Source: a virus
Virus record (IMG/VR): IMGVR_UViG_3300027810_000056
Span: 1-25,822 of that record
Length of the DNA: 25,822 nucleotides
Reading direction: 5' to 3' (one strand)
In this document: positions 222 through 19,686 of the stretch, piece after piece
Layout: each line of letters opens with the position of its first letter
How positions within the stretch are numbered: position 1 is the first letter of the stretch
Program-made: the position numbers and the translations under genes
Notes under the pieces: model-generated
What the model was told of the DNA's origin: nothing
Database searches by the model: none
What the model saw: the letters and a program-made list of their open reading frames with translations, nothing else

Positions 222-250
222 TTGACAAACCTAAACCGATAGGCTATCAT
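222..250 (+). promoter_or_regulatory. Candidate sigma70 promoter overlapping the terL start
   Basis: TTGACA at 222-227 is followed after exactly 17 bases by TATCAT at 245-250 (five of six matches to TATAAT). It sits in the only intergenic gap at this end of the late arm. The -10 box overlaps the terL ATG at 249, so a transcript from it would begin near 257, inside terL, and could not supply that start. It may serve the portal-to-capsid genes, with terL read from upstream transcripts, or be a chance match. Confidence 0.4.
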
Positions 251-4579: not shown

Positions 4580-5554
4580 ATGGCTGGCATGATTTCCTCC
4601 AATGCTGATACACAGCGTTTAATCCGTTCAGAGGTATACTCTTCTGAACTAAAAGACATCCTACGGGACGAGATGCAAGCACAACGTTATGTACGTATGC
4701 TTGACGGTTTCCCAGATGGTGACACTTTCACAATCCCAACAATCGGTAAAACAACCGTAGCTGACTACACAGAAGATGCAGCAGTTGCTTACACACCGAT
4801 GGACACAGCTGAGTTCTCTTTCACAGTTGACAAGTACTTGCAGTCTGCAACATACCTAACCAAGAAAGCTGCGCAAGATTCATTCTACTCAGCACAGCTT
4901 GAAGCACGGTTTGTACCAGAGCAAGAACGTGCCATCCTTGAGCACTTTGAGTCAACCACATTTGCATCTCCAGAAGTTGGCGTATCAGCTAACTCTGCAG
5001 AAACAACTGATGGCATTGCTCACCGTATCTCAGGTGGTAACTCAGGTGTCATGGAACTAGCTGACTTTGCATTCGCACGTTATGCGTTGAAGAAGTCTAA
5101 CGTTCCAGATCGTGGCTTGGTTGCTGTTGTTGACCCATCCGTTGAGTACCAACTGAACACATTGACAAACTTGACCAACGTGTCAAACAACCCAATGTTT
5201 GAAGGTATTGTTCGTGACGGTATCGCAACTGGTATGCGTTTCGTAGCTAACGTCTATGGCTTCGATGTATACACATCCAACTACTTGAAGACAACTGTTG
5301 CCGATGCTGCGTTGGTAGAGAAAGATGGCTCAACAGCCAACGACTTCTCATCTAACAACGGTGTTGCTAACTTGTTCTTCTCTGCTGATGCGGGTGCTAA
5401 CCCATTCGTTGGTGCATGGCGTCAAATGCCAGAGGTTGACTATGAGTACAACAAAGACAACCAACGTCACGAGTATGTTACTACTGCTCGTTACGGTGTA
5501 AAGAAGTACCGTCCAGAAGGTATCGTTACAATCGTAACTAACCCTGCTGTATAA
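4580..5554 (+). CDS. Major capsid protein
   Basis: A 324-residue protein that forms the icosahedral shell. It follows the scaffold and has the T7 gp10-like arrangement: an N-terminal arm (RLIRSEVYSSELKDILRDE), a strand-rich segment (GDTFTIPTIGKTT), a long helix (YLTKKAAQDSFYS), then a peripheral domain with a conserved-looking VAVVDPSVEYQL near residue 180. It ends in a basic, Tyr-rich strand region (HEYVTTARYGVKKYRPEG). The codons are uniform and biased (GGT, CGT, GCT, AAC), as in a highly expressed gene. AAGGA precedes the ATG by eight bases. A terminator-like hairpin begins eight bases after the stop. No slippery site for a gp10B-like frameshift was seen at the end. Confidence 0.93.
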   Translation: MAGMISSNADTQRLIRSEVYSSELKDILRDEMQAQRYVRMLDGFPDGDTFTIPTIGKTTVADYTEDAAVAYTPMDTAEFSFTVDKYLQSATYLTKKAAQDSFYSAQLEARFVPEQERAILEHFESTTFASPEVGVSANSAETTDGIAHRISGGNSGVMELADFAFARYALKKSNVPDRGLVAVVDPSVEYQLNTLTNLTNVSNNPMFEGIVRDGIATGMRFVANVYGFDVYTSNYLKTTVADAALVEKDGSTANDFSSNNGVANLFFSADAGANPFVGAWRQMPEVDYEYNKDNQRHEYVTTARYGVKKYRPEGIVTIVTNPAV

Positions 5555-5561
5555 TACTCTA

Positions 5562-5585
5562 GGGTGTCCCTTAACGGGGGCACCC
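5562..5585 (+). terminator. Hairpin terminator after the capsid gene
   Basis: GGGTGTCCC (5562-5570) pairs with GGGGCACCC (5577-5585) through nine pairs including one U-G, closing a six-base loop (TTAACG). Only a broken T-rich stretch (CTTTACTCTT) follows, so it may terminate partially, much as T7 has a leaky terminator behind its capsid gene. Confidence 0.62.
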
Positions 5586-5598
5586 ACTAACTTTACTC

Positions 5599-5627
5599 TT
5601 GACAGATGCTTCAGACCCCTGTATAAT
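5599..5627 (+). promoter_or_regulatory. Perfect-consensus sigma70 promoter for head-fibre/tail genes
   Basis: TTGACA (5599-5604), a 17-base spacer, and TATAAT (5622-5627): twelve of twelve consensus bases at optimal spacing. It lies in the 123-base gap between capsid and the next gene, just after a hairpin terminator. Transcription should start near 5634 and leave a leader of about 44 bases before the ATG at 5678. It implies use of the host RNA polymerase for late genes. Confidence 0.85.
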
Positions 5628-5677
5628 TTCTTTACCTTGGCAGGGCCACTAGTATATATCCCCTACGGAGATTCCCC

Positions 5678-6142
5678 ATGGCTAACGTAAACCACTCCAC
5701 TCTTACTGATCCCTACCTGCATGAGCCTAAGGGTGTCTCTACAGCTTCTTCTGGTCAAGTCTACAAGGCTAACGGTTCAGGTTCAGGTACATGGTCGTCG
5801 CAGACTACTCGTTCTGTATTCACTGTTCATTTAGCAGACTTATCTTCAGCAGAGAACATCTACTGTCCTATTCCTTTCGGTGGTACCGTTAGTCGAGTAA
5901 CTTCAGTACTTGAAGGTTCTATTTCTGGTGGTGATGTAACCGTCACAGTTAAGAACTCCTCAGCTGCAACTATGGGTACCATTACAGTTACTCAATCAGG
6001 CTCAGCTGCTGGTGACATTGACTCCTTAGACCCTTCATCTAACAATACAGCCACAGATAACGACTACATACTAATCCAGACAGATGGTGGGGCCAGTACT
6101 CACGTTGACTTCATGGTCTCCGTTGTAGTGGAGCATGTGTAA
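5678..6142 (+). CDS. Putative head fibre / capsid decoration protein
   Basis: A 154-residue protein rich in Ser, Thr, Gly and Val. The N-terminal part has the pattern NHSTLTDPYLHEPKG followed by SGQVYKANGSGSGTW (near residues 25-39), a recurring capsid-attachment style segment in phage head-fibre and decoration proteins. The rest alternates short hydrophobic strands with Ser/Gly/Asn turns, suggesting an all-beta surface domain. It is the first gene behind the consensus promoter, fitting a protein needed in many copies. GGAG lies eight bases before the ATG, and its stop overlaps the next start (TAATG). An alternative is a small tail-associated protein. Confidence 0.6.
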   Translation: MANVNHSTLTDPYLHEPKGVSTASSGQVYKANGSGSGTWSSQTTRSVFTVHLADLSSAENIYCPIPFGGTVSRVTSVLEGSISGGDVTVTVKNSSAATMGTITVTQSGSAAGDIDSLDPSSNNTATDNDYILIQTDGGASTHVDFMVSVVVEHV

Positions 6143-19656: not shown

Positions 19657-19686
19657 AAAGCCCCAAGGAGAAATCCAAGGGGCTTT
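19657..19686. terminator. Bidirectional rho-independent terminator between the convergent arms
   Basis: AAAGCCCC (19657-19664) pairs with GGGGCTTT (19679-19686). Inside, an AA/AA mismatch is followed by GGA/TCC and a GAAA tetraloop. On the plus strand it runs into CTTTTCTTTTA. On the minus strand it is followed by CTTTAACTTTATTT. It lies exactly between the stops of two convergent genes (19652 and 19691). Confidence 0.9.

Follow-up and report, generated by a model that had tools for sequence, protein, structure and literature searches.

Why should a phage carry, immediately behind its major capsid gene, a sigma70-type promoter in which every base of both boxes matches the consensus, and what would this promoter do for the genes that follow? 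The stretch of DNA that raises this question, called the window hereafter, is a whole virus record of 25,822 bases and is kin of Roseobacter phage CRP-5 and Lentibacter phage ICBM2, whose capsid proteins share 91.7% identity with its own. A homologous capsid, the synteny, a B12-dependent ribonucleotide reductase and two convergent arms place the phage in the Cobavirinae (Zobellviridae), where it is Veravirus-like. The plus strand carries the structural genes as far as a hairpin with a T-run at 19657-19686, and the minus strand carries the replication and nucleotide arm, which includes the reductase; neither RNA families nor tRNAs were found in the window. An RNA polymerase gene is absent from the cobaviruses described in the accessible text of PMC6775973 and PMC6918029, the window itself being a 25.8-kb fragment. 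The region around the promoter is organized as follows.

4580..5554, plus strand: major capsid protein gene (PHROG 267 major head protein, E 4.5e-38)
5562..5585, plus strand: 10-bp hairpin 3' of the capsid stop, candidate leaky terminator or 3' mRNA stabiliser
5586..5598, plus strand: T-containing stretch from the hairpin to the -35 box
5599..5627, plus strand: sigma70-type promoter, with -35 TTGACA at 5599-5604, a 17-nt spacer and -10 TATAAT at 5622-5627 (exact consensus and conservation)
5634, plus strand: predicted transcription start, an A, placed by its spacing of six bases to the -10 box
5635..5645, plus strand: initial transcribed region CCTTGGCAGGG with the weak dyad CCT-TGGC-AGG, conserved in relatives
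5678..6142, plus strand: first gene after the promoter, 154 aa, likely a head fibre or cement protein (weak fold matches)

The boxes and the spacing announced by the first-pass annotation are present on the plus strand letter for letter, and they form the single occurrence of the exact 12/12 pattern, with a spacer of 16-18, in the window. The mean number of such sites in 100 dinucleotide shuffles of the window is 0.01, and the composition-based expectation for the capsid gap alone is about 1e-5. A chance match without function could appeal to the fact that sites of 9/12 or better are, as a class, no more frequent in the window than in its shuffles; this same fact makes the exactness of 5599-5627 the signal, and the position of the site and its conservation over relatives also speak against chance.

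This conservation was followed behind the capsid genes of IMG/VR viruses and named phages, where 366 capsid matches, less four with a missing stop or a short flank, left 362 usable loci, or 212 distinct ones when both the capsid C-terminus and 150 nt are considered. Scored over 160 nt behind each of these 212 genes, the best matches to the promoter are distributed bimodally. The loci of the window type score 12/12 in 64 cases, 9 in one and 8 or less in 43; those of the ICBM1 type score 12 in 52 cases, 11 in two, 10 in three and 8 or less in four; those of the L081 type score 12 in one case, 11 in six and 8 or less in 27, and none of the nine T5S1-type loci rises above 8. The low-scoring groups consist in part of more distant phages in which the next gene starts almost immediately. 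Sorting by gap length, which avoids choosing loci by their boxes, was applied to the 153 of 203 cobavirus-type loci that possess a recognisable downstream HEPK gene; the 50 loci without one within 300 nt were left out of these counts, and by subtraction from the 160-nt match counts one of them has a promoter of at least 10/12. Where the capsid gene and its downstream neighbour are separated by at least 75 nt, which is the case in 99 distinct gaps, 87 gaps carry an exact 12/12 site, eight a site with 11 matches, three a site with 10, and one none, while the promoter occurs in none of the 25 loci with short gaps (51-64 nt). Loss of the boxes from a conserved gap, by which the first-pass annotation proposed to judge its promoter, is thus confined to a single distinct long gap out of 99 and does not refute the claim. 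The boxes outlast the divergence of the spacers, whose mean identity over the 98 distinct promoter-bearing gaps is 46%, and TTGAC together with the first, second (-11A) and last (-7T) bases of the -10 box is invariant in all 98 distinct sites; with described cobaviruses devoid of an RNA polymerase, this supports the assignment to the sigma70 type. Chance, to which we give practically no credence, was rejected on the combined weight of the shuffle expectation, the bimodal matches and the 87 exact sites, and we conclude, from comparison of sequences, that 5599-5627 is a real, strong and conserved promoter of the sigma70 type.

The promoter comes and goes as a whole. In the promoter-less relatives the entire unit of 60-70 nt is lost, and on a tree of 147 capsid proteins presence and absence require at least nine changes, of which well-supported branches demand eight; with the presence labels shuffled on the same tree, the mean is 32. 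The all-or-none distribution and these changes indicate that the unit is gained or lost as a block, and where it is present the site is maintained by strong selection. It is present behind the capsid gene in ICBM1, ICBM2, SIO1, P12053L and CRP-5 and absent in CRP-4; since CRP-4 and other close relatives manage without it, the unit is not essential. In one promoter-less relative (L023) the usual start of the head gene is replaced by a cysteine-rich ORF which resembles, by eye, a small endonuclease. A pattern combining the promoter with CTTGGCAGGG matched 27 stretches in viral_contigs; bacterial copies were sought with it in genome_contigs, with 0 matches.

Around the two boxes, many post-capsid promoters have a TG abutting the -10 element (TGTATAAT; 5620-5621 in the window), which misses the position of a canonical extended -10 by one base. 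The proximal UP element consensus is A-rich, and the T-stretch that precedes the -35 box at about -42 to -39 was rejected as an UP element because it does not resemble this consensus, which favours a function in termination, or no function at all, for the T-stretch. The predicted start at 5634 lies at the modal bacterial distance of 6 nt from the -10 box (PMC8407463). According to the accessible text of the same source, more than 60% of the sigma70 -10 elements of R. sphaeroides, C. crescentus and Z. mobilis are devoid of T at position -7, and these published start-site data agree with the earlier remark that an exact consensus is unusual in alphaproteobacterial hosts. Many alphaproteobacterial promoters appear to need CarD, which has been proposed to compensate for the missing -7T (PMC8407463). 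A perfect -10 box may therefore free the phage from CarD, and by analogy with R. sphaeroides, which stands in here for the host of the phage, the presence of -7T probably makes the promoter CarD-independent.

The hairpin that precedes the promoter had been annotated as a terminator, and what is borne out of this claim is the structure. The stability of this G+C-rich stem-loop (-19.6 kcal/mol, z -3.1 against shuffles) and its conservation are clear, all nine predicted pairs showing compensatory changes among 19 representatives, and it is kept behind the capsid stop in relatives with and without the promoter. A terminating function fares less well. No U-tract was found directly behind the stem at 5562-5585, where the sequence ACTAACTTTACTC offers no long T-run and only TTT at 5592-5594, and a simple terminator scan of the first 13 kb of the window did not list the hairpin. 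The comparison case in the same genome is the following.

19657..19686: canonical intrinsic terminator between the convergent arms, with the T-run TTTTCTTTT

The position matching this element is annotated as a bidirectional terminator in the records of ICBM1 and ICBM2. Because a canonical U-tract is missing, the hairpin at 5562-5585 would be at most a leaky terminator, and its retention in promoter-less relatives, where transcription must pass, makes real termination doubtful. These same two observations, the retained hairpin and the missing U-tract, together with the result of the terminator scan, favour an alternative that keeps the promoter but sees in the hairpin a site at which the 3' end of the capsid mRNA is stabilised or processed, the new transcripts simply being added to full read-through. 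What opposes it is the company that the promoter keeps: a T-run of at least 3 within 12 nt after the hairpin accompanies 53 of 68 distinct promoter-bearing loci and one of 10 promoter-less ones, in a comparison limited to hairpins of at least 7 pairs (of the cobavirus-type loci, 126 out of 128 with the promoter and 25 out of 75 without it, reduced to 68 and 10 distinct ones). If termination were wanted only at a restart, T-runs would be expected with the promoter, as counted, and the comparison suggests that termination may be selected only where transcription restarts. The stabiliser alternative thus comes close to an even chance without quite reaching it, and we retain for the hairpin the double designation of leaky terminator or mRNA stabiliser, with a leaky terminator as the upper limit of what it might do.

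The gene that this promoter would serve first may encode an abundant product. The protein encoded at 5678-6142 combines a conserved N-terminus of 40 aa with an exchangeable beta-sandwich domain, for which Foldseek returned weak matches that include the phage cement and capsid chains 7dou, 7dn2 and 7eel amid unrelated sandwiches. The head-fibre candidacy advanced by the first-pass annotation hence remains plausible, as head fibre or cement protein, on fold support that is weak. Such a protein would be required at a copy number near that of the capsid protein, and this would account for a promoter at 5599-5627. In its homologues from close relatives the first 40 codons are kept and several types of C-terminal domain follow, the proteins measuring mostly about 150-156 or 182-196 aa.

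The site behind the capsid gene was correctly recognized. It does not stand alone: more consensus promoters are found along the late arm in relatives, and a second promoter-like site lies in the window itself.

222..250, plus strand: TTGACA-17-TATCAT, 11/12, the -10 box overlapping the terminase ATG (249-251)

The last two bases of this -10 box are the AT of the terminase ATG, and the same TATC-ATG overlap (245-251 in the window) is found at 15 of 51 distinct Veravirus-like terminase starts. With a start seven bases beyond the -10 box, inside the terminase gene, this promoter would serve the portal, scaffold and capsid genes and not the terminase gene. At 26 of 48 distinct Siovirus-type portal starts, the gene is preceded at a distance of 27-31 nt by a site of 11 or 12 matches (TTGACA-17-TATTAT or TATAAT). 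The genomes of SIO1, ICBM1 and P12053L contain two 12/12 sites apiece and no third; of these, one follows the capsid gene and the other stands where the late arm begins. Over 24 long contigs we counted 50 exact sites against one for a reversed control pattern, four of the 24 holding none, a count which is biased upward by the six contigs that had been reached through a promoter-pattern search.

Further sites were observed outside these positions. Strong promoters near the right end of ICBM2 (40364, plus strand) and CRP-5 (38928, plus strand) point outward; in ICBM2 the terminal repeat lies within about 400 nt of this promoter, so that the right-end transcript would run off the linear genome unless the DNA is joined. 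CRP-4 carries three copies, at 1964, 8009 and 39720, of a different repeated motif, TTGACA-N-(T/G)(T)AAT(A/C)TATAAGTAT. Two contigs of promoter-less relatives hold two copies and one copy of the TATAAGTAT-type motif, and none was found in five other promoter-less records or fragments, nor in the five promoter-bearing genomes searched.

The exact promoters of SIO1, ICBM1 and P12053L resemble each other beyond their boxes, the same 22 bases, AGTCTTAACAAGTCTCCCCTGC, standing behind the -10 box of both sites in all three phages. These three are Siovirus genomes, and a core of 20 bases from their shared start region was matched by 56 viral contig stretches. Such repetition would fit a timed switch, in which a phage regulator, for example an early HTH_39 protein, binds the start region and keeps the promoter off until late. 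The conservation of CCTTGGCAGGG at +2 in many Veravirus-like phages, the enrichment over the family of a dyad near +1 and the small winged-helix protein (PF14090) encoded in the early region of ICBM1 and ICBM2 point in the same direction. Yet the start regions differ between the promoters of one Veravirus-like genome while the stem is kept, which fits an RNA structure better than a single operator; moreover, nothing ties the HTH protein to the site at 5599-5627, the window covering little of the early arm. We therefore regard a timed switch as unlikely.

The retained stem leads to another alternative, according to which a stem at the 5' end of the mRNA would slow 5'-dependent decay, promoter and stem together giving abundant and long-lived late mRNA. 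The first 20 bases of 41 non-redundant start regions, drawn from 161 contexts at cobavirus loci only, are more stable when folded than any of 200 shuffles (z -6.4 for mononucleotide and -4.3 for dinucleotide shuffles); four of the 41 that appear by eye to fall within genes or at their borders were retained. A broader set of 66 contexts, into which the pattern search mixed unrelated phages, gave a weak mean z of about -0.6. Offsets 4-8 after the -10 box are where most stems of at least 4 bp begin, and the effect is gone by offset 12. In E. coli a 5' hairpin impedes conversion by RppH (PMC3997798), in accordance with such a protective role. Against it, the folding signal is owed for the most part to the 24 promoters that are not post-capsid; taken by themselves, the 17 post-capsid start regions reach z -2.0. 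In the window the stem is reduced to CCT/AGG, and the complete leader is less stably folded than its shuffled versions (z +1.56). The start-region stem is accordingly a trend of the family and not a property shown for the promoter at 5599-5627, for which mRNA protection of this kind seems doubtful, if somewhat less so than a timed switch.

The model that we consider likely, as a joint reading of the host sigma70 promoter that starts a post-capsid transcript, the leaky or protective hairpin, the late-arm relay and the probable CarD-independence, is read from sequence and would operate as follows. The housekeeping sigma70 polymerase of the host would start a new transcript at about 5634, which would supply the head fibre or cement protein, the tail adaptor, the tail, the internal virion proteins and the lysis genes. 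The hairpin would trim or protect the capsid mRNA and pass only part of the upstream transcription, and the promoter would refill the polymerase for the rest of a late-gene run of roughly 14 kb. Three positions, the beginning of the late arm, the terminase or portal gene and the post-capsid gap, would in this way constitute a relay of host-type sigma70 promoters by which transcription is restarted, and the levels of capsid and tail may be set separately by the promoter. It counts against this model that the timing of the late genes finds no explanation in a consensus promoter that is constitutively active.

The individual parts are of kinds already known, a sigma70 promoter and a hairpin behind a capsid gene. 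In T7, the gene 10 region consists of the phi10 promoter, gene 10 and the leaky terminator T-phi, followed by class III promoters; the cobaviruses resemble it in being podoviruses whose late arm is lined with consensus promoters and in a putative leaky stop after the capsid gene. The T7 promoters, however, are read by a phage polymerase and those of the cobaviruses would be read by the host sigma70 enzyme; the strong cobavirus promoter follows the capsid gene instead of preceding it, and the cobavirus hairpin is without a U-tract. The early promoters of T5 are near-consensus, with start-region effects. All gene classes of T5 are transcribed by the host sigma70 polymerase (PMC7472727), but T5 belongs to another phage family with another host class, and the cobavirus unit is distinguished by its position at the capsid-gene boundary behind a conserved hairpin and by its gain or loss as a block. 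The sigma70 promoters of R. sphaeroides and C. crescentus resemble the phage sites in the class of sigma factor, the 17-nt spacer and the start 6 nt behind the -10 box (PMC8407463), and differ from them at -7T, which most host -10 boxes do not have and which all 98 distinct phage sites do. The phage of PMC7316996, which encodes its own polymerase, was set aside as a comparison.

The records of ICBM1, ICBM2, SIO1, P12053L, CRP-4 and CRP-5 contain no promoter annotation, the non-coding features annotated for ICBM1 and ICBM2 being the arm terminator and the terminal repeats only. The term 'promoter' is not used in the accessible main text of PMC6775973, PMC6918029 and PMC8528129, and no description of a post-capsid promoter was found in the accessible literature on cobaviruses, roseophages, Zobellviridae, phage promoters and T5. 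The all-or-none exact cassette across cobaviruses and the late-arm relay are thus new to the sources searched, in so far as these were accessible.

A wider picture can be proposed tentatively, as possible rather than probable: cobaviruses might take over the alphaproteobacterial cell by promoter quality alone, with CarD-free -7T sigma70 cassettes, often followed by a 5' RNA stem, that would be copied to arm starts and capsid borders and swapped as units, and that the CRP-4 lineage would have replaced with a TTGACA...TTAATATATAAGTAT type. More directly, our observations provide a sequence-level account of how abundant marine phages without a polymerase could drive their late genes with the unmodified host enzyme. 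Natural phage promoters make the escape from CarD control through -7T a testable question, and the cassette may offer a strong and transferable promoter for Rhodobacteraceae.
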